Assembly: GCA_903896535.1 (NCBI GenBank) | Contig: CAITYE010000137.1 | Span: 1 to 37,177, forward strand | Reading direction: 5' to 3' | From: an uncultured Paracraurococcus sp. | GTDB lineage: Bacteria > Pseudomonadota > Alphaproteobacteria > Acetobacterales > Acetobacteraceae | DNA length: 37,177 nt | Shown here: piece after piece, positions 4,616 to 37,177 of the stretch | Layout: each line of letters starts with the position of its first letter | Numbering within the stretch: position 1 is the first letter of the stretch | The notes under the pieces: model-generated | The model's database searches: none | The model's input: only the letters and a program-made list of their open reading frames with translations | What the model was told of the DNA's origin: nothing | Position numbers and translations under genes: made by a program

Positions 4616-5529
4616 GGACGCTGCCGAGCGGCATGACGGCGGCGCTGGCAACCGGAATCACCACCTGGTGCCGCTGCCTGTCCATCACCCGCGCCGATAC
4701 CACCGTGTTCGCGCTGACCGATCATGACGCCGATATCACCTGCTCGGCCTATCCGCCCGGCGCCTCGGCCGTCGCGATCACCTATCTCGCCGCGATCGGC
4801 GGCGCCGCCAGCGCGATCGAAACCAATCTCGGCCTCTCCGTCGGCAACCTCACGATCGACGGCGCGCTCTCGCCCGATGGCATCACCGACGGCGATATCA
4901 GCGCCGGCCTCTACGATGACGCGACCATCGCGCTCTACCTGGTGGACTGGACGACGCCGACCACCTGGTTTGTCCTGCTGGTCGGTAACGTCGGCCAGTT
5001 CCGCCGCGGCCGCGCGCACGTCACCACCGAGCTGCGCGGCCTCGCCCACCGGCTCAACCAGCCCACCGCACGGCTCGCCACCCGCACCTGCTTTCATGAC
5101 CTCGGCGACAGCAAATGCGGCGTCACCCTGGCCAGCTTCACCGACACCGGCCGCTCCGTCACCGCGCCGGATAGCGGGCTGCCACGCTCGAAATTCACCG
5201 CCACGCTGCCCGATACCACCGGCATCGCCTACTTCAGCGGCACTGTGAAATGGACCTCCGGCGCCAATGCCGGCCTCGCCGGCGAGGTCAAGAATCAGGT
5301 GCTAGCGTCCGGCGTCACCACCATCACGTTCAACCTGCCGATGCCGAACGCGATCGCGGCGGCCGACGGGTTCGACATCATCACAGGCTGCAACAAAACC
5401 GCGCCGGTCTGCGTCGCCACCTTCTCCAACCTCGCCAATTTCGGCGGCTTCCCGCGCATGCCCGGGGTGGATCAGGTCTACTTCTATGGCGACCGCAACG
5501 ACCTCAACAACGGGGCTTCGCTGTTCTGA
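4612..5529 (+). CDS. DUF2163 / BR0599-type phage tail protein
   Basis: GTG overlapping the previous TGA; LATGITTWCRCLSITRADTTVFALTDHDADIT...CFHDLGDSKCGV. Confidence 0.85.
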   Translation: MRTLPSGMTAALATGITTWCRCLSITRADTTVFALTDHDADITCSAYPPGASAVAITYLAAIGGAASAIETNLGLSVGNLTIDGALSPDGITDGDISAGLYDDATIALYLVDWTTPTTWFVLLVGNVGQFRRGRAHVTTELRGLAHRLNQPTARLATRTCFHDLGDSKCGVTLASFTDTGRSVTAPDSGLPRSKFTATLPDTTGIAYFSGTVKWTSGANAGLAGEVKNQVLASGVTTITFNLPMPNAIAAADGFDIITGCNKTAPVCVATFSNLANFGGFPRMPGVDQVYFYGDRNDLNNGASLF

Positions 5530-5975
5530 TGACCACGCAAGCAGCCATCATCGCCGAGGCCCGCACCTGGATCGGCACGGCCTATCACCACCAGGCGAGC
5601 TGCAAAGGCGCCGGCACCGATTGTCTCGGCCTGATCCTCGGCATCTATCGCGCCGTGATCGGGCCGCTCGGCCAGGTAGTGCCGCCCTACTCGCCGGACT
5701 GGGCCGAGGCCAACGGGCGCGAGACACTGGCCGAGGCGGCGCGGCTGCACCTGCAGGAGATCACCTTGGCCGAAGCCGGGCCCGGTGACGTGCTGCTGTT
5801 CCGCTGGGGGCCGAGCCTCCCGGCCAAGCATTGCACCCTCCTGGTCGACGGCGCGGCCGACGCCGGCGGCACCATCATTCACGCCTATGGCGGGGTGCGC
5901 GTCTGCGAGGTGCCGCTCGGCCAGCACTGGGCCAAGATGATCGCCTACGCCTTCCGCTTCCCTGAGGCGCCCTGA
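5529..5975 (+). CDS. NlpC/P60-family phage cell wall peptidase
   Basis: ATG at 5529; AARTWIGTAYHHQASCKGAGTDCLGL catalytic-Cys motif, later His (AKHCTLLV). Confidence 0.9.
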   Translation: MTTQAAIIAEARTWIGTAYHHQASCKGAGTDCLGLILGIYRAVIGPLGQVVPPYSPDWAEANGRETLAEAARLHLQEITLAEAGPGDVLLFRWGPSLPAKHCTLLVDGAADAGGTIIHAYGGVRVCEVPLGQHWAKMIAYAFRFPEAP

Positions 5976-5976
5976 G

Positions 5977-7461
5977 ATGGCCGGCTCCACCCTCACCATC
6001 GCCGGTGCCATCGTCGGCAACATGATCCTGCCCGGCATCGGCGGCATGATCGGCGCTGCGGCCGGCGGCATGATCGGCGGTGCCATTGATCAGTCGATGG
6101 CGAAGCCGCGCCAGGCGGCGCAGATGGACATCACCGGGGTGTCATCGGTCGAGGGCTCGCCGATCCCGCGGGCCTTCGGCAAGGTGCGCGTCGGCGGCAT
6201 GCTGGTGTGGGCAACGCGGTTCAACCGCAGCAGCGGCAGCTCGCACGCCGGCAAAGGCTCGCCGGCCGGCACCTCCACCACCGATACCTACACGGCGAAT
6301 TTCGCCGTCGCGATCTGCCTTGGTCAGATCTACAACGTCACCCGCGTGTGGTTCGACGGCAAAGAACAGAACCTCTCGACGCTGCCCTGGCGGCTGTATT
6401 ACGGCAGCACCTCGCAGACGGCCGATTCGCTGATCGTGGCGAAGGAGGGCGCGGCCTGGGCGCCCGCCTTCCGTGGCATCTGCTACGCCGTGTTCGAGGG
6501 GCTCGATCTCACCAACGTCGGCAACCGCATTCCCCAGGTCTCGTTCGAGGTCTGGAGCACCTCGGCCGGCACCGAGACGATGGACAACATCGTCTCGACC
6601 CTGTGCAGCGATGCCGGGGTCGATACCGGGTTGATCGACGTGACCGATATCGCGTCGATCACTGTCTCCGGCTACGTCTATCCGGGCTCGCAGACGGTGC
6701 GCGAGGCGATCGCGCCGCTGGCCGAGCTGTATGGGTTCGACGGGTTCGAGTCAGGCGGCAATGTGGTGTTCAAGCGGCGCGGGGCAAACCCGACCGTCAC
6801 CGTCGCGCTGGCGGACATGACGGCCGCGAGTGGCCCCAATGCCGACCCCTTCACCATCGAGCGCCAGCAGGAGACCGACCTCGATGCGCTGATGGGGGTC
6901 AGCTTCGTCAACGCCGACAACGACAAATACTGGCAGGAGACCACCTATGTCCGCCGCCGGGTCGATGGCGGCAAGCGCGAGCGCCGGTTGCGCCTGGCGC
7001 ACGCCACCCGCCGTCACGCCGCCCGGTCGGTCACGATCAACGCGCCGTATGATGAAATCACCGCACGCGCGCAGATGTTGCTCGATGACGAGTGGGTCGG
7101 CCGCGAACACCTCACCACCACGCTCGGGCCGGACTGGCTCGGCATCGAGCCCGGCGACAGCTTCACCCTGGACGTCAACGGCCTGCTGCGCGGCTTCCTG
7201 GTGGTGCGCACGAGCTATTCCGGCGCCGTCGAAATCCAGGCGCGCAGCTATGAGCCGTCCGCCTATGACATCATCATCGCCCCGGCGCCGACCACATCGA
7301 CCCAGCCGGCGGCCGGCACCACGCCGACCACCGATCCCACGCCGGTCACCACCACCCCGGTCGATATCGGCGGCGCCGGTGGCACCGACGGCGGCGGCAA
7401 CACCGAATCGCTCGGCGCCGGCGGCAGTGGTGTCGGTGGCGATATCACGGGCGGCATCTAG
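5977..7461 (+). CDS. GTA/phage tail host-interaction protein, N-terminal and tail_3-like part
   Basis: 494 aa; Gly-rich hydrophobic N-terminus, VEGSPIPRAFGKVRVGGMLVWATRF, YVRRRVDGGKRERRL. Confidence 0.78.
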   Translation: MAGSTLTIAGAIVGNMILPGIGGMIGAAAGGMIGGAIDQSMAKPRQAAQMDITGVSSVEGSPIPRAFGKVRVGGMLVWATRFNRSSGSSHAGKGSPAGTSTTDTYTANFAVAICLGQIYNVTRVWFDGKEQNLSTLPWRLYYGSTSQTADSLIVAKEGAAWAPAFRGICYAVFEGLDLTNVGNRIPQVSFEVWSTSAGTETMDNIVSTLCSDAGVDTGLIDVTDIASITVSGYVYPGSQTVREAIAPLAELYGFDGFESGGNVVFKRRGANPTVTVALADMTAASGPNADPFTIERQQETDLDALMGVSFVNADNDKYWQETTYVRRRVDGGKRERRLRLAHATRRHAARSVTINAPYDEITARAQMLLDDEWVGREHLTTTLGPDWLGIEPGDSFTLDVNGLLRGFLVVRTSYSGAVEIQARSYEPSAYDIIIAPAPTTSTQPAAGTTPTTDPTPVTTTPVDIGGAGGTDGGGNTESLGAGGSGVGGDITGGI

Positions 7462-7463
7462 GT

Positions 7464-8315
7464 ATGAGCCCCGACCCGCGCACCATCACGGCCATCATCC
7501 TCGATCTGCCGCCGATCGACGGCGACGAGCCGCGCCATCGCCCGCTGCTCGCCGTCTCGGCTGCCCGCTTCGGCGGCGCGCATGTCTGGCGTAGCGTCGG
7601 CGGTGACGGCTACCGGCTGTGGTGCAGCACCGGCGCCGCCGCGACGATGGGCCGCCTGGTCACCGCCCTCGATGCCGCAGCCGCCGGCGACTGGCGGGAT
7701 CAGTCGTTCGAGGTCGCGCTCGATCACGGCGAAATCTACGCCGCCCCCCGCGCGGTCGTGCTCGCCGGCATCAACCTCGCCGCCATCCGGGCTGGGGATG
7801 CGTGGGAGCTTGTCCGCTTCGCCGGCGCCGAGCTGATCGGCCCGGCGCGCTATCGCCTGTCGGACCTGCATCGCGGCTGCCACGGCACCACGCCACTCGC
7901 GGCCGAGCCGGGCGCCGACCTGGTGCTGATCGACGACGCCGTTGTCCGCCTGCCGGTGCACCTGCGCGAAATCGGCATACCGATGGATCTTCGTATCTCG
8001 CCGACCGACCGCCCCTACACCGACGCCACCGCCGCCCGGATCAGCTACACGCCGACGGGCGGCCTGCATCGCTGGCCGGAGCTGCTGGTGCAGCCGGTTG
8101 CCCTGACGGTCGGCAACGTGCCGCCGGCGACGCCAGGCGAGGCCGAAGTCCATCTCGTCAGCGACGCGCCGATCGGCGCCTGGGCCGACCGCGCATACCA
8201 TGTCGCCGGCTGGCTGTTCGGCGCCTGGCGCTTCCAGCCGCCGTTCGAGGGCTACACCGTGTGGGACAGCGCCGCGCAGCGCTCCCGCACCTTCTCCGCC
8301 GGCGCCTGGCGCTAG
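7464..8315 (+). CDS. GTA ORFG15 C-terminal-like tail protein
   Basis: 283 aa; ARYRLSDLHRGCHGTTPLAAEPGADLVLIDDAVVRL...WPELLVQPVAL. Confidence 0.72.
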   Translation: MSPDPRTITAIILDLPPIDGDEPRHRPLLAVSAARFGGAHVWRSVGGDGYRLWCSTGAAATMGRLVTALDAAAAGDWRDQSFEVALDHGEIYAAPRAVVLAGINLAAIRAGDAWELVRFAGAELIGPARYRLSDLHRGCHGTTPLAAEPGADLVLIDDAVVRLPVHLREIGIPMDLRISPTDRPYTDATAARISYTPTGGLHRWPELLVQPVALTVGNVPPATPGEAEVHLVSDAPIGAWADRAYHVAGWLFGAWRFQPPFEGYTVWDSAAQRSRTFSAGAWR

Positions 8316-8345
8316 GCCCGCTTCTTCAACCCCCGTGAGGTAACG

Positions 8346-9089
8346 ATGATCAGACTTATGATCGCGCTGGCGCTTGCGCTGGCGGCCCAAAATATAGCGC
8401 ATGCAGAAGCGCCAGGGATGCTTGTTGGCCTCGTAGGCGGCGATGGCAACAGCGTTTCAACGAGCCACCCCCTCCCCGTCACTCTCAGCACCGGCGCGGC
8501 AGTCATTGGCGCGGTGAACCTCAACGATGGGTCCGGCAATCCGTTGACCTCGACCACCATTTCGAGCGCCTACCGCCTCAATGTCCACACCCTCGGCATC
8601 ATCGCCGCCGGCGCGACGGCTGGCTCATATGTGTATGAGATGGGCGGCACGGACGGCACCAACACGCGCATGATTTCGACCGACACCAGCGGTCGGCTGA
8701 TCCTCGGCGCCGGCACCAACGCCATCGGCGGCGTCTATCAAGCGCCGAACGCGACATCGGCGGCAGGTATCGCACCGAGTGCGACCAGCGCGCTCGCGGG
8801 AAGCCTCGTGCTCAAGGCGTCGGCTGGCAATCTGTATGGCCTGACCGTGACGACCAGCACCGTCGCCGGATACGTGATGCTGTTCAACGCCACCAGCGCG
8901 CCAGCGGACGGCGCGGTGACGCCGACGAAATGCATCTATCTCGGCGCCGCGCCGTCGACGGTCGCGATCTCCTGGCGGTCAGGCCCGGCATCCTACTACT
9001 CGACCGGGATCACGGCGGTATTTAGCACCACGGGCTGCTTCACGAAAACCGCCAGCGCAACCGCTTTCCTTGACGGAGACGTCCAGTGA
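8346..9089 (+). CDS. Putative exported phage protein with Sec-like N-terminus
   Basis: 247 aa; MIRLMIALALALAAQNIAHAEA signal-like N-terminus; Thr/Ser/Ala-rich body. Confidence 0.7.
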   Translation: MIRLMIALALALAAQNIAHAEAPGMLVGLVGGDGNSVSTSHPLPVTLSTGAAVIGAVNLNDGSGNPLTSTTISSAYRLNVHTLGIIAAGATAGSYVYEMGGTDGTNTRMISTDTSGRLILGAGTNAIGGVYQAPNATSAAGIAPSATSALAGSLVLKASAGNLYGLTVTTSTVAGYVMLFNATSAPADGAVTPTKCIYLGAAPSTVAISWRSGPASYYSTGITAVFSTTGCFTKTASATAFLDGDVQ

Positions 9090-10270
9090 GCACCATCAAA
9101 ACCATGCGCCGCTGGCGTCTGCTTGCGGCATTTCTCGCGGTCCTGATCGGGCCTGCGGCGCCGATCTTCGGGCAGACGATCACCTATTCTGGCGTCTATG
9201 CGCCGCTCTCCACGGCAGCCGCTCTTTTCGGCATAGGAGCGGACGGCACGGTCACAATCTCGTCGGGCACGACCACGCTCACACGGGACATGCACTACGC
9301 AAACCTGACGATCTCGGGGACGGGGAAGCTCAACACAAATGGTTGGGTGGTATATGTTTCTGGAACGCTCGATCTATCGAACGCCCCGGCGCAGGCAATC
9401 TACAGTTTTGGCTCTGCTGGGGGAAACGGTTCGGGCGCGACCGGCGGCGGCCCGGGCTTTTACGCAGGGACTTTGGCCTACATTTCGTCGGGTGCTAACG
9501 GAGGCTATGGGACCAACGGCGGAACGGGAGTTGGCGGTGCTGGTATCGGCTTTAGCCGAAATGCGGGATACGGCGGCGACGGTGGCACGTCCGGCGCAGG
9601 CGGAACAGCGTCAGCGGGCGCGACGGCGGGCGGCGCGGCGGCAACTCCCACATTTGTTCAGCGGTTGCCTTGGGTGGGTTTGCCTATCCCGCCGAACCTA
9701 CAGACGACTGGCGGATCAGCGGCCGGGGCTGGGGCGGCTAATTCGATCTGGGCCGCACAAGGCGGCGGAAGCGGGGGCGCCGGAGCAGGTGACGGCACGA
9801 ATAGCGGCGGCGGAAACGGCGGCGGCGGAAGCGGAGGTAACGCCGTTGTCATCCGTGCATCTGTCATCAATCGCGGTGCGAGCACAGCGGCGAGTGCCAT
9901 TCAAGCTCTTGGCGGACCCGGGGGTGTTGCCGGCAACGGCCTTGCCGGCAACACTGGCGGCGGTGGGGGTGGCGGTGGCGGCGGCGGTGGTTTGATCGAC
10001 CTCGTCGCGGGCGCCCTCGTGGGTGCGACGGCGACCAACGCGCTTGACGTATCCGGAGGGGCTGGGGCTGTTGGCGGAAACGGCATCGGCACTGGGAAGG
10101 GCGGCGGTGGCGGCGGGGGCGGCAACGGCGGCGCAACCAAGGTGCTGATTTTGTCGCCTCCGTCGCTGACCCTCAATGCCGTGAACACCGCCGGCACGGC
10201 GGGAAGCACCACGGCCACCACGACTGGTGCTGCGGGTGGGGCGGGCGCTGTATCGCGGTCAAATCTGTGA
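9086..10270 (+). CDS. Glycine-rich putative adhesin/tail fibre with Sec-like N-terminus
   Basis: 394 aa; MRRWRLLAAFLAVLIGPAAPIFGQT; dense GG/GGG repeats including a run of 12 Gly. Confidence 0.7.
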   Translation: MSTIKTMRRWRLLAAFLAVLIGPAAPIFGQTITYSGVYAPLSTAAALFGIGADGTVTISSGTTTLTRDMHYANLTISGTGKLNTNGWVVYVSGTLDLSNAPAQAIYSFGSAGGNGSGATGGGPGFYAGTLAYISSGANGGYGTNGGTGVGGAGIGFSRNAGYGGDGGTSGAGGTASAGATAGGAAATPTFVQRLPWVGLPIPPNLQTTGGSAAGAGAANSIWAAQGGGSGGAGAGDGTNSGGGNGGGGSGGNAVVIRASVINRGASTAASAIQALGGPGGVAGNGLAGNTGGGGGGGGGGGGLIDLVAGALVGATATNALDVSGGAGAVGGNGIGTGKGGGGGGGGNGGATKVLILSPPSLTLNAVNTAGTAGSTTATTTGAAGGAGAVSRSNL

Positions 10271-12788: not shown

Positions 12789-13862
12789 TCAAGCCAATAT
12801 TGCGCCCACTGCCGGTGGGTGCACCTCTATGTGGTTCCAGAACCACCGTTCCTTGATCTCCGGTACCAGTCCCTCGGGCACCAGGTGCGCGTAGCGTTCG
12901 ACGAGCACGACGCTGGACCAGTCGCCGTCTATCTTGAGGCGGAGTAGGTCCTTGTGCATGGCGTAGTGCCAGCTTGCCCAGGTGTGGCGGGCATGGTGGG
13001 GCGTGACGGGTTTGGTGATCTTGGCGCGCGATAGGGAGCCGGCCCAGCCCTTGCGTATCTGACCGCCGGAGAGGCGTTCGCGGTCGGTGTAGGGCTTGCC
13101 TCGGCGCTGCCGGAATACGGGGCCGTCGCGGTGCTTGAGGTTGGCCAGGGCGGCGATCACGCGGGGCGGGAGATCGCGGAGCAGGCGATCGCGGCCGTTC
13201 TTGGTGTCGCGAAGGGTCGCGCGGCCGTGCGGCAGGTCAACGTCCTGCCATTGCAGATCAAGCGCCTCGCCGAGCCGGGCGCCAGTGCCATACAGGAAGG
13301 TCAGCAGCGGGCGAAGGTGCTGCTCGGCCGCGGCGATCTGAGCATCGACTTCCGCCGGCGTCAGCCACTCGGTGCGGCTGCGGCCTGGTGCGCCGCGCTC
13401 GAATGCCGGCACCCGGCACCAGCCGCGCGCGGCCGCCCATTGCAGCACGGCCTTGGTGGGGGTGACGATCTCGCGGAGCTTGGTGGGGGGCGCATAGCCG
13501 GGGCGAAGGATGGCGTCGGCCGCGCGATCGATCCGCTCCTGCTCGATGTCGTCAACCATGGTGCGGGGGCCGAAATGGCGGAGCAGCTTGTTCAGCCGGG
13601 CGCGCGTGCCTTCGCCGGGCTGGCGGTCCTTCAGGTAGCCGTTGACGGCCTCGCCGAAGCTGTGGCGGTCCGCGGGCGCCCCGTGAAGGGCAGCACGGTA
13701 GAGCGCTGTTTCCCGGACCGCGCGGTATTCTTGCGCGAGCTCGGGGCGGTCTGTGCCAGTGCTTTCGTAAATTCGGCGTCCATCGATGGAGCCGCGGAGG
13801 TAGAGCGCGGCGCGGCCTTTGATGGCAACGACTTCAAGTCCAGGGCGGCGGCGGGGCGGCAT
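12789..13862 (-). CDS. int: Tyrosine-type site-specific integrase
   Basis: TGARLGEALDLQW, HHARHTWASW, VERYAHL catalytic motifs. Confidence 0.95.
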   Translation of the reverse strand: MPPRRRPGLEVVAIKGRAALYLRGSIDGRRIYESTGTDRPELAQEYRAVRETALYRAALHGAPADRHSFGEAVNGYLKDRQPGEGTRARLNKLLRHFGPRTMVDDIEQERIDRAADAILRPGYAPPTKLREIVTPTKAVLQWAAARGWCRVPAFERGAPGRSRTEWLTPAEVDAQIAAAEQHLRPLLTFLYGTGARLGEALDLQWQDVDLPHGRATLRDTKNGRDRLLRDLPPRVIAALANLKHRDGPVFRQRRGKPYTDRERLSGGQIRKGWAGSLSRAKITKPVTPHHARHTWASWHYAMHKDLLRLKIDGDWSSVVLVERYAHLVPEGLVPEIKERWFWNHIEVHPPAVGAILA

Positions 13863-20773: not shown

Positions 20774-20876
20774 CGGAACGGGGAGGACGTCCCGATAGCC
20801 GAACCCTGCGCGCGATTTCGCGCGGGCGGCAGAGTCGGAAACTACCTAGCGGGATGATGTGCGGGAGGTCTCGAGC

Positions 20877-21365
20877 ATGAGCAGCGTTTCCCAGGAGCCG
20901 TGGACCCCGGCCGGTGACGATCAGCTTCGCGCGCTGTGGGCGGAGGGATTGTCGACCGCGAAGATCGGCGAGCGCGTGGGCCGGTCGAAAAACGCCGTCG
21001 TCGGCCGTGCCCATCGCATCGGGTTGGCGCGGCCGTCGCCGCTGAAGCGGCGTGGGCCGCCGCGGGTGCCGCGGGCGAAGCCGCTGGCGGGGGCGGCAAA
21101 GCGGGTGACATTGGCGCCGCTGGCGAATGCCGCGCCGGTTCCCGCGCCCGCCACGGTGGCGCCGATCGCCGTGCCGCGCCTCGGCGTGGTGGTGGCGCTG
21201 CCGGTGCGGCGGGGGGCTTGCCAGTTTATTGCGGGCGAGCCGGCCGGCGCCCGCACCTTGTTCTGCGGCGCGGCCACGGTGCCCGGCCGCAGCTACTGCG
21301 CGGACCATACCGCGCGCTGTTTCATTCCCCGAACTGACCGGCGAACCTTTTGGGAGCTCGCGTGA
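20877..21365 (+). CDS. GcrA-like cell-cycle regulator
   Basis: WTPAGDDQLRALWAEGLSTAKIGERVGRSKNAVVGRAHRIGLARP and C-terminal CQF...GEP...FCGAATVPGRSYCADHTARCF. Confidence 0.87.
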   Translation: MSSVSQEPWTPAGDDQLRALWAEGLSTAKIGERVGRSKNAVVGRAHRIGLARPSPLKRRGPPRVPRAKPLAGAAKRVTLAPLANAAPVPAPATVAPIAVPRLGVVVALPVRRGACQFIAGEPAGARTLFCGAATVPGRSYCADHTARCFIPRTDRRTFWELA

Positions 21366-22147
21366 TGGAAATCACCCTTCGGCTGCTGCTTGATGTGACG
21401 CCACACATGGGGGGGCTGATCGAGCGCCTGGTCGCGGCGCTGGAGGCGGTGCCCGGGCGTGTGACGGCGCCGCCGGCTCCAGTGCTTGCGCCGATATCTG
21501 CGCCGGTCACGGCGATGCTGGTGCCGGATATGCAGATAGCGGAGCCGGCTATGCAGATAGCGGAGCCGGCTATGCAGATAGCGGCGCCGGACGCGCTCGC
21601 GGCGGTCGAGCCGCCGGTACCGGTACCAGCGCCGGCCGAGCGGCAACGCCGCCCATCGCTCTGGTCGCCGGCGCGTGACGCGGTTCTGGTGGAGGGCTGG
21701 CCGAAGGGCATCGATGTCGCGGCGCTGCATATCGCGGTGAATGCTTTGTCCGGCCCGGTGATGCCACGCGATCGGCTGGCGGTGCGGGCGGCCTACCTGC
21801 GATTGAAGCGGCCGCCTGGCTATCACGGTCAGACGAAATCGGTGGCCGCGCCGCCTGTCGTGCCGGCGTCCGTTCCCGTCGCCGCGCCGCCCGTGCCGGC
21901 TCCGGCTCCCGCGGCCGCGCCAGTGTCTTCGCCTGTCGCCTCTCCCCCCGCACCCCCCAGGCAGGAAGCGGGCAGCATGACACCACCCGTCAGCACGACG
22001 GCGGTGGAAGCCTCGCTCGATCAAATCCGCCGCTGGGCCGGGGAGCGCGGCATCTCCTTCGACCATGCGGACGATCTGCCGCGGGTCAATGCCAAGCGGC
22101 GCCAGCATTTCCTGCCGCCGTTCGTGGTGCGGAAAATCCAGCGCTGA
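21365..22147 (+). CDS. Pro/Ala-rich protein with Myb/GcrA-like helical segment
   Basis: ATG overlaps gcrA-like stop; WSPARDAVLVEGWPKGIDVAALHIAVNALSGPVMPRDRLAVRAAYLRLKRP; C-terminal DDLPRVNAKRRQHFLPPFVVRK. Confidence 0.6.
   Translation: MEITLRLLLDVTPHMGGLIERLVAALEAVPGRVTAPPAPVLAPISAPVTAMLVPDMQIAEPAMQIAEPAMQIAAPDALAAVEPPVPVPAPAERQRRPSLWSPARDAVLVEGWPKGIDVAALHIAVNALSGPVMPRDRLAVRAAYLRLKRPPGYHGQTKSVAAPPVVPASVPVAAPPVPAPAPAAAPVSSPVASPPAPPRQEAGSMTPPVSTTAVEASLDQIRRWAGERGISFDHADDLPRVNAKRRQHFLPPFVVRKIQR
21534..21590 (+). repeat. Three tandem copies of a 21-bp unit inside the CDS
   Basis: atgcagatagcggagccggct repeated; encodes PDMQIAE-PAMQIAE-PAMQIAA. Confidence 0.85.
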
Positions 22148-23211
22148 TGTCATCCGCCGAGCGCCTCACGCCGCACGAAATCTCCAGCATGCTGGCGGGG
22201 CGCATCCGCGACCTGGTGGATCGGCTCGCGCCCGGCGGCACGGTGATCGGCGGCGAATGGGTGGTGCGCAACCCGACGCGGCATGACCGCAATCCCGGCT
22301 CCTTCCGCATCCACCTGGTGGGGCCGGAAAAGGGTATGTGGTTCGAGTTCGCCAGCCGCGAAGGCGGCGACGCGCTGGGGCTGGTGGCCTATGTGCTCTA
22401 TGGCGGCGATGTCGGGCCGGCGATCAAATGGGCGAAGTCCTGGCTTGGGATCAGCGACGCGACTCCGCCGGAACAGGTGCGCGCTGCGATGCCGCCGCCG
22501 GTCGACGATGCGGCGGCCGAGGCCGAGGCGGCGCGGCGGCGGGAGTGGAAGCGCAAACTCGCCGTCCGGCTCTATCTCGATGCGCAGGAGCGGCTCGCCG
22601 GCACGCCGGCAGCAGAGTATCTCGCCGGGCGCGGCATCGATCTGGCGCAGCTCGGCCGCCAGCCGCGTGCCCTGCGATTCCATCCCGGGCTGCACAACGA
22701 GGAAAGCCAGGCGGCGTGGCCGGCGCTGGTGGCGGCGATCAATGATGGCGAGGGGCAGCATATCGCGACCCATCGGATATGGCTGGCGCGGATCGATGGG
22801 CGCTGGAAAAAGGCGCCGTTGCAGCAGCCGAAAATGGCGCTGGGTGCCTTCACCGGCGGGTTCATCTCGCTGTGGCGCGGGGCCTCGGGCAAGCCGTTGC
22901 GCGAGGCCCCCGAAGGCGACGCGGTGGCGATCGCCGAGGGGATCGAGACCGCCTTGTCCGTCGCGATCGCCTGCCCTGAGCTGCGCGTGCTGTGCGCCGT
23001 GGCGAGTTTCAACATGGGGCGCCTGGCGCTGCCCGCGACCATCCGCCGGGTGATCCTGGCGGCCGACAATGACCTCGACAACGCCATGGTCGAGGCCAAG
23101 CTCGCCGCGGCCGTCGCGCATTATCAGTCCGAGGGGCGGGATGTGCATGTCGCGATGCCGCCGGTGCCGGGTGCGGACTGGAATGACATCCTGCAGGGCG
23201 TCGAGGGCTAG
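22147..23211 (+). CDS. Toprim-domain DNA primase
   Basis: NPTRHDRNPGSFRIHL..., VAIAEGIETALSVAIACPELRVLCAVASFNMGRLALP..., VILAADNDLDN...PPVPGADWNDIL. Confidence 0.88.
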   Translation: MSSAERLTPHEISSMLAGRIRDLVDRLAPGGTVIGGEWVVRNPTRHDRNPGSFRIHLVGPEKGMWFEFASREGGDALGLVAYVLYGGDVGPAIKWAKSWLGISDATPPEQVRAAMPPPVDDAAAEAEAARRREWKRKLAVRLYLDAQERLAGTPAAEYLAGRGIDLAQLGRQPRALRFHPGLHNEESQAAWPALVAAINDGEGQHIATHRIWLARIDGRWKKAPLQQPKMALGAFTGGFISLWRGASGKPLREAPEGDAVAIAEGIETALSVAIACPELRVLCAVASFNMGRLALPATIRRVILAADNDLDNAMVEAKLAAAVAHYQSEGRDVHVAMPPVPGADWNDILQGVEG

Positions 23212-23261: not shown

Positions 23262-23603
23262 ATGAGCGCCGCCGCCCGGAAATGCCCGGCGTGCAGCAAG
23301 CCGGTGACGCGGGAGGCGATGATCTGCCGCCACTGCGATGCCGCGCTGTTCGACCGGCAGCTCTGGGCGGCCGGGTGGCGCCTGGTGCTGGATCGGCCGC
23401 AACTCCCGGTCTCGTGGCCGGCCGAATTCGGGCCGCCGCGTCAGGGCCAGGTGTGCGCGGCCTGCGGTAATGCGTCGTGGGAAATCCTGCGGGACGGGAT
23501 CGGCTGCGCGATCTGCCATCCCGGCGGCAAAGCGGCGCGACCGATCGCGGCAATCGCAACGGGCCAGCAAGGCCCGGGCAAGAACGAGGGCGAAGCGGCA
23601 TGA
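23262..23603 (+). CDS. Zinc-ribbon protein
   Basis: CPAC...CRHC and CAAC...CAIC pairs. Confidence 0.7.
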   Translation: MSAAARKCPACSKPVTREAMICRHCDAALFDRQLWAAGWRLVLDRPQLPVSWPAEFGPPRQGQVCAACGNASWEILRDGIGCAICHPGGKAARPIAAIATGQQGPGKNEGEAA

Positions 23604-25528
23604 CCGATGGACGGGAAAAGGTGCGGGCGGGCGTGCTCGGCGCACCGAAGGCGGCGCATCTGTCGGTGGTGGAGGGCGGCGGCGGCGAAAAAAATGCAGT
23701 ACAGCCCTTGAGCGGCAGGAAGGCGCGCGGCGGCAGAAAAGGCAATGACGGGCCTCCCTCGCCCGCCCTGCCGCCGCCGTCGCCCGAGAGCACCTGCCCG
23801 CTGGTGCCGCTGGGTCACCAGGACGGGGTTTTTCATTTCCTCGATATCGACGGGCAGAAGCGGCAGCTCTCGGCGCGGCAGATGGGCTCGCGCTCCGAGC
23901 TGGTGACGCTGTTCGTCGGCGAGGGCGATTGGCTGATGAAGTGGTTTCCCCGGGTGCGCAAATACACCGAGACGGTCGAGGGGGTCGAAGCCGAGAAAAC
24001 CGAGACCATCGGCATGAACCATGCCGCCGCCGGCGAGTGCCTGATGCGGCTGTGCCGCAAGGCCGGGCTTTATGGGCCGCATGTGGTGTTGCGCGGACCC
24101 GGGGTGTGGCGCGGCGACGATGGCAGCCCGGTGGTGCATGTCGGTGATTACGTGCTGTCCGGCGATCGCTGGGCGCCGTCGGGCTATCGTGGCGGCAACC
24201 AGGTCTGGCGGGTGGAATGGCCGGCGCCGCGGCCGGGTGCGCCGCGATCGGATGGCGAGCCGTCGGCGCCGGGTGATCCGGGCTTCGCGGCGCCGGCGAG
24301 CGTGGCGCAGCAACTGCAGGCGACGATCCGGGATCTGTGGTCGTTCCGCAATCCGGGTGCCGATATCGTGGTGCTCGGGCTGATGGGGATCGGCTATTAT
24401 GGCGCCGCCGCGCGGTGGCGGGCGAACGGGTATCTGATCGGCGGCACCGGCTCGGGCAAGTCGCTGCTGCTCGATCTGCTCAGGGCCTGTGTGCCGGCGC
24501 ATTCCTACAGCACCGACACCACCAAATCCGGCATCGAGAACGCGATCGATGGGCGGCCGAGCGGCGTGTTCATCGATGAGGCCGGCGATCGGGTGGATCA
24601 GCGCGGGGCGCAGAACCTGCTCGATTTCGTGCTCTCGGCCAGTTCAAACGACGGCACCAAGGGATTGCGTGGGACTATGGATGGGCGTGGGCGCTCGTTC
24701 GAGGTCCGCTGCAACGTGATCATGGCGACGGTCAATCCGCCCGATATGGGGCCGCAGCACCGCGATCGCTTCACCGTGGTCGATCTGCGCAAGCCCGGCG
24801 CCGGCGAGGATCATCGCGCCAAGATGGAGGCGGCGGCGGCCTGGGCGAAGGAACAGGGGCCGGCGCTGTGGGGCCGCGCGATCGAGGGTTGGGATCGGTG
24901 GCTGCTGGCGCGGGACGCCTACCGCGCGGCGCTGGCGCGGGCGCAATGCGCGGCCCGGGAAATGGACCAGATCGGCGCCATTCTGGCGACCTGGTGGGTG
25001 CTGGCCGAGGATGGCGTGCCGACCGAGGCGCAGGCGCTCGATGGCGTTGGCGCGATCGGGGCGTTCATCCGTGGCGCGGCGGCCGTCGCGCTGGAGGATG
25101 GGCCGCGCCGCATGGTGCAGCATTTGGCCGGGCGGACCATCCAGCGCGACCGCAGCACTGACCTGGAGCAGGTCGGCGTGCTGGTGCGCGAGACGTTCGA
25201 GGCGGCGACCGACAGCGAGGCCGATCCGACCCGGCGGCTGCTGATGCGCAGCGGTATCAGGGTGATCCGGGCAACCGATCTCAAGGATAAGCAGCAGCGT
25301 CCGGTGCCGCGAGGGGCCGATGGCGATGGCATCTGGTTTGGCCGAACCGTCAATGAACTCAGGGCGTTGTTCGGCGGGACGGTGTGGGATGGGGACCGAT
25401 GGACCTATGAGATGTTGCGGCATCCCTCGGCGGTGGAATGGCGGCACAAAAACGTTCGCATCGGTGGCGTGTCGGGTCCGGCGATCTGGATATCCCGCGC
25501 CGATTGGGACCCGCCGGATGACGATTAG
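23600..25528 (+). CDS. P-loop ATPase, probable replicative helicase
   Basis: GGTGSGKSLLLDLL Walker A, GVFIDEAGDR Walker B, NVIMATVNPPD sensor-like; follows primase. Confidence 0.8.
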   Translation: MTDGREKVRAGVLGAPKAAHLSVVEGGGGEKNAVQPLSGRKARGGRKGNDGPPSPALPPPSPESTCPLVPLGHQDGVFHFLDIDGQKRQLSARQMGSRSELVTLFVGEGDWLMKWFPRVRKYTETVEGVEAEKTETIGMNHAAAGECLMRLCRKAGLYGPHVVLRGPGVWRGDDGSPVVHVGDYVLSGDRWAPSGYRGGNQVWRVEWPAPRPGAPRSDGEPSAPGDPGFAAPASVAQQLQATIRDLWSFRNPGADIVVLGLMGIGYYGAAARWRANGYLIGGTGSGKSLLLDLLRACVPAHSYSTDTTKSGIENAIDGRPSGVFIDEAGDRVDQRGAQNLLDFVLSASSNDGTKGLRGTMDGRGRSFEVRCNVIMATVNPPDMGPQHRDRFTVVDLRKPGAGEDHRAKMEAAAAWAKEQGPALWGRAIEGWDRWLLARDAYRAALARAQCAAREMDQIGAILATWWVLAEDGVPTEAQALDGVGAIGAFIRGAAAVALEDGPRRMVQHLAGRTIQRDRSTDLEQVGVLVRETFEAATDSEADPTRRLLMRSGIRVIRATDLKDKQQRPVPRGADGDGIWFGRTVNELRALFGGTVWDGDRWTYEMLRHPSAVEWRHKNVRIGGVSGPAIWISRADWDPPDDD

Positions 25529-25536
25529 CTGTGCGG

Positions 25537-25741
25537 CTGTGAGGGGCTGTGAGAAACCTGTGAGGCGCAAGCCTTTGATAACGCTTGCTGTGAGGCTGTG
25601 AGGATAAAAGGTGGAAAAGCCCAGAGAAGGGCCGTCCGTTCACCACCAACCGTCCTCACAGTCTCACAGTTCTCACAGTAATAATTTATATGAGTAAAGT
25701 CAGGAGGTTGGTCTGTGAGAAACGCTGTGAGGACCTGTGAG
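25537..25741. repeat. Iteron cluster, putative replication origin
   Basis: CTGTGAG at 25537, 25547, 25558, 25588, 25596, 25713, 25725, 25735; CTCACAG at 25655, 25663, 25672; AT-rich segment 25678-25700. Confidence 0.8.
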
Positions 25742-26497
25742 GCGCCCGAGACCTATCCCGAGACTGCGAATTCCGCTTGCGACTCGGTCGATGATCGCAT
25801 AATCGGCAACGACGCTCCGCGGCCCTCTGGGCACCCGGAGTGCGGCAGCCATGGTGAAAACCGGGCGGAAATCAGCAGCAAGATTTTGAGACATGGCGGC
25901 CCACGCAAGAATGCGGGTGGGCCGCGCCCCAACAGCGGAGGACCTCGGCCTGGCGCTGGTCGCAAGGCGATGTTGGCATCGCCCGTCCTGCGCACTTGTG
26001 GCCCGCGCTGGTATTGCGTCGCCACATGGCCCGGCGCCGAAGACGCGGTCATCGAAGTGCTGAAGGCGGGAGGGGTCGAGTATCATTTCCCGCTGATGAT
26101 CGAGGATGACAGCGGGGTGAAGCGGCCGGTCTATTCTGGATATGTCTTCGTCCTGCTCGATCTGGATGTGCCGGGTTGGGAGATCTTGTCGCGGTCCAAG
26201 GCCACCCCGCCGCGGCGACTGCTTGGCGGATCGGGGGAGCGGCCCAGCCCGGTCGAGCCGCGAGGCTTCGTCGAAGGCCTGATCGCGGCGGCAAACGAAG
26301 ACGGCTTGATCGACGCGCGATCGGATGAGGATGAGGCGATCGAGCCCGGCTCGGCGGTCAAGATCACCGAAGGCCCCCTGGCCGGCTGCGAGGCGATCGT
26401 CCAGCACGCCGGGTCGAAATGGGTGCGGGTGACCGTCGCGATGTTCGGCCACCACACCACGGCGACGATGGGGCGCGGCGGGATCGAGGTCATCTGA
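25715..26497 (+). CDS. NusG/RfaH-like transcription elongation factor with basic N-terminal extension
   Basis: GTG with AGGAGG at 25702-25707; RWYCVATWPGAEDAVIEVLKAGGVEYHFPLMI...RPVYSGYVFVLLDLDVPGWEIL; KOW-like PGSAVKITEGPLAGCEAIVQ. Confidence 0.82.
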   Translation: MRNAVRTCEAPETYPETANSACDSVDDRIIGNDAPRPSGHPECGSHGENRAEISSKILRHGGPRKNAGGPRPNSGGPRPGAGRKAMLASPVLRTCGPRWYCVATWPGAEDAVIEVLKAGGVEYHFPLMIEDDSGVKRPVYSGYVFVLLDLDVPGWEILSRSKATPPRRLLGGSGERPSPVEPRGFVEGLIAAANEDGLIDARSDEDEAIEPGSAVKITEGPLAGCEAIVQHAGSKWVRVTVAMFGHHTTATMGRGGIEVI

Positions 26498-26730: not shown

Positions 26731-27426
26731 ATGACACCCTCGCCGCAAACCGCCTCCCCTGCCGCGCGCCATGTCGTCACCAAGCTCGAGTACGCCCGGC
26801 TGAAGGATCGATCGCCCGCCGCGGTGTCGGATTGGATCAAGCGCGGACGCCTTACCGCGCCGGCTCTGGTCGGCGAGGGGCGGAGTGCCCGGATCGACGT
26901 GGCTATTGCCGACGCGCAACTCGGCAGCAGCCTTTCCCTCGGCCACCAGATCGGCTTCGCCCAGCGCGAGCCCGGCCGCGACATTTTCACCCCGACCGCC
27001 GCCGCCCCCGTCGCGACCGTCCCCACCGAGCCCAACGACCAGTCCCGCCTCCTCCGCGCCCGCGCCGAGGAAGCCGAAATTCGCTCCGCCCGCGCCTTCG
27101 CCGACGAGCAGGAACGCAACGGCACCTGGCTGATCCGTGCCGACGCCGAGCGCGAATACGGCAAGCGCCTGGCCGAGACCGTCCAGGCCGTCGAGCGCTG
27201 GCTCCCGACCCTCTCCGAGCAGCTCGCCACGCTCGAAACCCGCGACGAACGCACCCTCGCCGTCTGGCTACGCGCCCGGTTTCGGGAACTGCGCCAGAAA
27301 CTCGCCCACGATGCCCGCCAAGCCGCCGCGATCGAACCGGAATTCGCCACCGCCCCATGCGCGCAGCCCTCCAACCCATCGCCAACCCCGCCCGAGCCTC
27401 CTACCAGCTCGCCGCCGCTGTCCTAG
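26731..27426 (+). CDS. Terminase small subunit (Nu1-like)
   Basis: TKLEYARLKDRSPAAVSDWIKRGRLTAPALVG; overlaps large subunit. Confidence 0.8.
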   Translation: MTPSPQTASPAARHVVTKLEYARLKDRSPAAVSDWIKRGRLTAPALVGEGRSARIDVAIADAQLGSSLSLGHQIGFAQREPGRDIFTPTAAAPVATVPTEPNDQSRLLRARAEEAEIRSARAFADEQERNGTWLIRADAEREYGKRLAETVQAVERWLPTLSEQLATLETRDERTLAVWLRARFRELRQKLAHDARQAAAIEPEFATAPCAQPSNPSPTPPEPPTSSPPLS

Positions 27427-36495: not shown

Positions 36496-37177
36496 ATGCT
36501 CCCGATTTCGCCTTCGACCCCGCTGCGCGTGGTTCCTGCCCTGGACCGCGTGATCGCCGCCCGCGCCCTGGCGCTCGCCCTGCGCAACCAGGACCCGCCG
36601 GCGCCGGCCCCTGCCATCGCGGCGGCCGAGGCTGCCACCGAGGCGGCGCAATCCGCCCTGGAGGCACTCGGCGAGGCGGCGCCGGTCTATCTGGTCAAGC
36701 CGGCCTCCCGGCGCGAGCGGATCGACTTCCACGCCGCCATGCTCGAAGCCGGCATCAACTATCAGGACGATGGCAAGATGCGCGCCGTCCTGCGCGATGC
36801 GGTGCGCGGGCTGGCCGATACCGAGGCCGACGCGCTGCTCGCCATCGTCGACGGCGTCGATGCCCTGGCGTCCAGCGGCGAGCTGGTGCCGGATGCGATG
36901 CGCGAACAGCTCCGTGACATCGAGGAGGCAGCGATCGCGGGCTGGCCGGCCTACGCCCGCGTCATCGCCGCCCGCACCAGGTGGCACGCCACCGCCCCGC
37001 TGATCGCGGCCCAGCGCTTCCTGGTCGGCTGGGAAAACGTCGCCGCGCCGTTCCGTCGCCTCGGCGGCGTGGTACCGGACGAGACGCTCGATCAGATCCC
37101 GGATGACGATGTGCGCGCCATCGGGCAAGCCGCGCTGGCGGCGTTCGGCGTGTCGGAGACCGAACGAAAAAACTCCT
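36496..37177 (+). CDS. Tail assembly chaperone, gpG-like (zero-frame product; continues across the circular junction to base 143)
   Basis: ATG at 36496, MLPISPSTPLRVVPALDRVIAARALAL...; reading through the junction gives 227 aa ending ...SETERKNS at TGA 141-143; lies between tail tube and tape measure genes. Confidence 0.85.
   Translation, partial: MLPISPSTPLRVVPALDRVIAARALALALRNQDPPAPAPAIAAAEAATEAAQSALEALGEAAPVYLVKPASRRERIDFHAAMLEAGINYQDDGKMRAVLRDAVRGLADTEADALLAIVDGVDALASSGELVPDAMREQLRDIEEAAIAGWPAYARVIAARTRWHATAPLIAAQRFLVGWENVAAPFRRLGGVVPDETLDQIPDDDVRAIGQAALAAFGVSETERKNS
37037..37177. repeat. Terminal direct repeat, identical to 1-141
   Basis: Same as 1-141. Confidence 0.97.

Follow-up and report, generated by a model that had tools for sequence, protein, structure and literature searches.

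What is the role of the dense array of short repeats that separates a helicase gene from a NusG-like gene in the DNA of an uncultured Paracraurococcus sp.? The window, i.e. the whole stretch of 37,177 nucleotides analysed here (contig CAITYE010000137.1 of assembly GCA_903896535.1), contains 13 exact copies of the heptamer CTGTGAG, compared with 2.6 on average and at most 7 in dinucleotide shuffles of the whole window, and 11 of these copies (8 on the plus strand and 3 on the minus strand) fall within positions 25537–25741. Together with a one-mismatch copy, CTGTGCG, at 25529, they make up an array of 12 sites that starts right after the helicase gene, which ends at 25528, and is followed by the NusG-like gene. 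These counts, coordinates and neighbours agree with a first-pass annotation of the same DNA, which had proposed a putative replication origin. That proposal is still the best explanation, and similar arrays recur beside homologous helicases in dozens of phages and on small plasmids. Judging from these sequence comparisons, the array is very probably a phage replication origin or an obligatory cis-acting part of one.

Organization of the array

Measured from start to start, the sites are spaced by 8, 10, 11 / 30 / 8 / 59 / 8, 9 / 41 / 12, 10 bp, which divides them into four groups (G1–G4, Table 1), with 4+2 sites on one side of the largest interval and 3+3 on the other. The host assembly has no other pair of CTGTGAG sites as closely spaced as those of the array. 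The 17-nt inverted repeat described previously (25588–25604 with 25653–25669, one mismatch, 94% complementary) was confirmed. The best Rfam match, RAGATH-31, scored 28.9 bits against a cut-off of 71.8 bits and was discarded as a by-product of this inverted repeat; an Rfam scan of 14 relatives yielded no family.

Conservation of the array beside homologous helicases

A scan of viral contigs with the single helicase sequence returned nothing; relatives needed an alignment, which retrieved 80 viral loci as well as relatives from another 39 genomes belonging to the same order. An array was called strong when at least nine copies of one hexamer were found within 700 bp around or after the helicase stop codon. 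Such arrays are present in 57 of the 91 non-redundant helicase loci, compared with 3/91 within the helicase gene and 3/63 further downstream, the two control regions, and at least nine copies were reached in any of 40 shuffles at only two of the 91 loci. An unbiased hexamer count also placed a dense array at or after the helicase gene in most loci, with the repeat sequence differing between phages. The start of the array lies no more than 60 bp from the helicase stop codon in 42 of 72 non-redundant arrays. In Synechococcus phage MinM1, the nearest annotated phage relative, whose helicase is 34–37% identical to that of the window, TGTGAG repeats are found between the helicase gene and a NusG-like gene, which is nearly the layout of the window. 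Because arrays recur at the helicase with different repeats, it is their position and layout that are conserved while the repeat sequence turns over. Lack of conservation in relatives had been named as a ground against an origin; the search of relatives found the array conserved.

The iterons contain TGT in 37 and GGT in 22 of the 72 arrays (on either strand; about 8% expected for TGT), and part of the iteron recognition appears to be fixed, with the rest variable. A pattern search of viral contigs for three close copies of CTGTGAG was set aside, as it mostly retrieved periodic repeats of other kinds. An informative exception is locus L049, where a different replicase (Prim-Pol, PriCT_2, DUF5906) is followed by an array of 11 CTGTGAG copies with an AT-rich centre (within 5177–9654); this suggests that the same plan is used with another helicase family.

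Arrays on plasmids and alternative functions

Three Arsenophonus plasmids of 8–12 kb encode the same helicase, which is the only replication protein recognised on them, with an array directly after its gene; the three arrays use three different repeats on the same plan. One of these plasmids, paNv_CH14 (about 8 kb), has five annotated genes and no annotated terminase, the Pfam scan covering these five genes of an incomplete gene table, with shorter unannotated frames outside it. In two of the three, the gene for the terminase small subunit (TerS) is more than 4 kb away. Loci L269, L270 and L271 are Arsenophonus nasoniae plasmids of 8–12 kb that combine protelomerase genes with the helicase and the array, and the two TerS-bearing A. 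nasoniae plasmids look like phage-derived linear replicons or satellites. Natural plasmids with helicase and array lend circumstantial support to autonomous replication of the rep-plus-ori kind, and occurrence on small plasmids is the strongest evidence for a replication element over a packaging or late-control site.

At a packaging site (cos or pac), TerS would bind the repeats with IHF as a helper, much as gpNu1 of lambda occupies the cosB R sites that surround an IHF site. We retain this explanation as an improbable one because in one subgroup the array adjoins a TerS-like gene, lying about 40–80 bp upstream of it even when other genes part the array from the helicase gene. In addition, L049 has the array, a helix-turn-helix (HTH) gene and the terminase gene consecutively, IHF-like sites are present in the arrays (see below), and a comparison of 13 loci shows the TerS-like protein and the helicase C-terminus following the iteron about equally well. 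However, a cosB-like site would always be found beside terminase genes, whereas the array is present on paNv_CH14, and in Acinetobacter phage Acjo_20 it immediately precedes the helicase gene, with the annotated TerS gene about 4 kb away. In both the window and MinM1 another gene is inserted between the array and TerS, and the mirror symmetry of the arrays would give packaging no direction.

Still less probable is a role in late-gene control, with the array bound by a regulator of the phage. The array does part replication genes from late genes, and in several groups it is followed by a gene of the NusG-like, DUF6362 or HTH type, but this downstream gene varies while the array stays, no sigma-70-like promoter was found within 25400–25950, and paNv_CH14 carries the array without annotated late genes.

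Shared layout of the arrays

The layout was compared in the 72 non-redundant arrays and two further records (74 in all), with IHF-like sites and alternating purine-pyrimidine runs counted on 71. Arrays most often have 12 sites, and the commonest division is six and six about the largest inner spacer, found exactly in 22 of 74. The central spacer is usually 50–100 bp long and the sites within a group are 8–12 bp apart. This plan is clearest in Bdellovibrio phage phi1422, with intervals of 9, 10, 15, 63, 8, 90, 8, 63, 15, 10 and 9 bp; phi1422 and paNv_CAN17 both display near-perfect mirror spacing. Mirrored intervals are equal within 1 bp in 50% of cases, compared to 35% for halves taken from different arrays. 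The lengths of the outer gaps cluster around 30–32, 40–44 and 52–55 bp, in steps of about one helical turn, and the centre length is broad.

IHF-like sites (at least 8/9) in mirrored orientation were detected in 18 and 15 of the 71 outer gaps, versus 0.7 and 2.4 expected, and none above chance, as judged by dinucleotide shuffles, in the array centres. This distribution makes IHF bending between the iteron groups somewhat probable. The HU/IHF family has five members in the host genome, a count that by itself does not separate IHF from HU. The gap between G3 and G4 averages 68% AT across relatives, versus 34% in helicase genes, and reaches 71% in the window, versus 31% in its helicase gene. The first-pass annotation had assigned an AT-rich unwinding element here: the AT-rich stretch itself is present (25679–25700), but it lies in an outer gap and may serve for IHF bending instead of melting. 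The array centres average 43% AT, versus 34% in helicase genes. Alternating purine-pyrimidine runs of at least 14 bp occur in 39 of the 71 centres (mean run 14.8, compared with 6.5 in shuffled sequences), including those of L183, L184, L187 and L196, and possibly have a role in strand opening; the array centre of the window has no run of at least 14 bp.

The P1 parS and lambda attP sites likewise combine short boxes with IHF sites, a resemblance that could point to a role in centromere-like partition or, as an att site, in recombination. Nevertheless, the scanned window genes included no recognisable partition gene, the integrase gene (12789–13862, minus strand) is about 12 kb distant, and the iteron tracks the helicase. 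Either role is very improbable.

The helicase and its C-terminal domain

The helicase, the proposed initiator at the favoured origin, is not recognised by Pfam. Its AlphaFold2 model (predicted local distance difference test score, pLDDT, 84.7) has Foldseek matches to MCM2-7, AsfvPrimPol, the NrS-1 helicase and MPXV (poxvirus) E5, and thus resembles hexameric replicative helicases, with an MCM/D5-like AAA+ fold. The Rep structure of Staphylococcus aureus pathogenicity islands (SaPI) is not among the best fold matches listed for this model, and a search of PDB chain sequences with the helicase profile gave weak P-loop matches only, including MCM5.

In pairs of comparable overall helicase identity, with the rest of the helicase controlled for, iteron similarity tracks helicase residues 609–681 (partial rho 0.36, with 0 of 400 permutations as high); the sequences are related and not independent, and permutation removes kinship only partly. 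For the other helicase domains, partial rho ranges from −0.14 to 0.15. Clustering of the proteins encoded near the arrays left only the helicase and the primase as common to most loci, a procedure by which fast-changing proteins could be missed. The covariation points to one segment within the helicase and falls short of proving that the helicase is the reader; we consider it likely that its C-terminal domain reads the iterons.

Proposed mechanism

A mechanism can be suggested by analogy with published work on SaPI, phage-inducible chromosomal islands (PICI) and the staphylococcal cassette chromosome mec (SCCmec). About twelve 7-bp iterons, six per side of the spacer, would be bound by the phage AAA+ helicase via its C-terminal domain, and IHF-like bends between the groups of each half would probably fold the six sites together. 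One helicase complex may then assemble per half, the DNA between the halves would be opened, and two helicases would depart in opposite directions, with the adjacent phage primase priming synthesis. On the specific point of two hexamers on two six-site halves we lean slightly to the negative. An equally tentative generalization is that of a widespread type of origin whose twelve exchangeable iterons are arranged as two mirror-image, IHF-bent halves, each templating one hexamer of a self-loading helicase, i.e. a pre-built double-hexamer loading site. Its code would change quickly together with the C-terminal domain, so that related phages and satellites would exclude one another at the origin.

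As probable origins, the arrays provide a rule for finding others, namely one short repeat in a mirrored 6+6 block next to an MCM/D5-like helicase gene, applicable to many phages, prophages and small plasmids that are annotated only as 'hypothetical protein'. They would also extend the satellite type of origin organization to full-length phages and linear plasmids. With six sites per half, double-hexamer loading by a simple initiator-helicase becomes open to direct test, and the natural pairs of repeat and C-terminal domain offer material for working out the recognition code.

Several observations weigh against an origin of this kind. No strong array was found within 700 bp in 34 of the 91 loci, about ten non-redundant arrays are more than 450 bp from the helicase, some loci show none, and several 90-kb phages with a helicase homologue have no detectable array. 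The orientation mirror is imperfect, with 282 of 407 mirrored positions opposite. In the window itself, the second IHF-like site, at 25698–25710 in the G3–G4 gap, is weak (7/9) and the array centre is not AT-rich (44% AT). The covariation with the helicase is not separable from that with co-inherited primase or TerS-like proteins, a test that was too small. A fold search with the model of the C-terminal domain gave no PDB match, and we therefore do not claim it as a proven winged helix. Cumulative GC skew, recommended earlier as a check, gave no support: its maximum in the window is at 26733 and its minimum at 12875, and in relatives it shows no switch at the array and is uninformative.

Comparison with known origins

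The closest parallels are found in phage satellites. In the SaPI/PICI and SCCmec work, the short iterons immediately downstream of the genes for SaPI Rep and Cch2 are recognized by a C-terminal domain of the encoded protein, with apparent binding as two hexamers (PMC7581432). A rep-ori of this kind from a PICI was able to maintain a plasmid, and such an origin organization was regarded as peculiar to phage satellites (PMC6092414). For the PLE satellite and phage ICP1, a similar arms race over the iterons of an origin is documented (PMC8263062).

Like the SaPI/PICI origin, the array of the window (25529–25741) directly follows an initiator-helicase gene and consists of two sets of short iterons, here with a modal 6|6 division about the spacer and four groups in all; the C-terminal reader, published for SaPI/PICI (PMC7581432), has a candidate counterpart here in the covarying domain. 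In contrast, the AT-rich region between the two iteron sets that defines the PICI origin is lacking, and the arrays usually comprise about 12 sites, 6+6, which fall into four groups of mirrored spacing and are accompanied by IHF-like sites. Their carriers are full-length temperate phages, other phages and linear plasmids, and the phage of the window has its own virion genes, unlike a satellite. Because the layout, the likely use of IHF and the carriers differ and the AT-rich centre is missing, we file the array, by analogy, as a variant of the SaPI/PICI kind of origin and not as a PICI origin itself.

The cis-required region for replication (crr) annotated in the satellite phage P4 follows the alpha primase-helicase gene and contains ten 8-bp type I repeats, TGTTCACC, in both orientations. 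The sequence TGTTCACC resembles many of the iterons found here, and about 10 short iterons right after a (primase-)helicase gene are common to both systems. However, crr is a direct repeat of two 120-bp units as opposed to the mirror-like layout of the arrays, crr yielded no IHF-like site of at least 8/9, and the ori of P4 is a separate element about 4.5 kb away.

In the lambda origin, the iterons form part of the gene for the initiator O, and P loads the host helicase. The array shares with this origin iterons and an AT-rich stretch near replication genes, but its iterons are intergenic, starting past the helicase stop codon, and the AAA+ helicase is the phage's own. The lambda-type layout suggested in the first-pass annotation is accordingly replaced by that of an origin beside a helicase-initiator gene, as in SaPI/PICI and P4 crr. 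Iteron plasmid origins of the RepE, TrfA and RctB type have longer, mostly direct repeats and a non-helicase initiator, and several involve IHF; the likeness lies in the repeated initiator sites, which here are 6–8 bp long, spaced 8–12 bp apart and arranged in alternating groups.

Phage genome and neighbouring genes

The features of the locus are listed in Table 1. The local gene order is primase, a small zinc-ribbon gene, helicase, array, NusG-like gene, TerS and terminase large subunit (TerL), and the window also encodes portal, major head and tail proteins.

Table 1. Coordinates of the array and of adjacent genes in the window
Feature	Position	Strand	Remarks
DnaG-type primase (DUF7146 + Toprim_3)	22147–23211	+	homologue upstream of helicase in many relatives
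AAA+ helicase, 683 aa, phrog_21086, proposed initiator	23477–25528	+	
Helicase C-terminal domain, residues 609–681, proposed iteron reader	25301–25519	+	separate model, pLDDT 90.9
Degenerate iteron CTGTGCG, first G1 site	25529–25535	+	found allowing one mismatch
Remainder of G1, iterons 25537, 25547, 25558	25537–25564	+	exact CTGTGAG; spacing 8, 10, 11 from 25529
IHF-like site, G1–G2 gap	25568–25580	-	TATCAAAGGCTTG on minus strand, 9/9 to WATCAANNNNTTR
G2, iterons 25588 and 25596	25588–25602	+	exact copies
Central spacer separating the two six-site halves	25603–25654	.	widest interval of the array (59 bp between site starts)
G3, inverted, iterons 25655, 25663, 25672	25655–25678	-	exact copies
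AT-rich outer gap G3–G4	25679–25712	.	71% AT
G4, iterons 25713, 25725, 25735	25713–25741	+	exact copies, spacing 12, 10
NusG-like (antiterminator-type) gene after array	25715–26497	+	start codon uncertain
Terminase small subunit	26731–27426	+	about 1 kb past the array

The true start of the NusG-like gene is uncertain because the first GTG of its frame (25715) falls inside the last iteron group; the frame has a long N-terminal extension with a GGPRPGAGRK-type stretch, and a search of genome contigs with its product found no relatives. A nucleotide search against known phages gave no match. Because of an exact 141-bp terminal repeat (1–141 and 37037–37177), as left by the assembly of a circular molecule, the contig probably represents the complete circular genome, about 37,036 bp long, of a temperate phage. 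Adjoining the replication genes, a GcrA-like cell-cycle regulator is encoded at 20859–21365 (Pfam, 1.2e-22).
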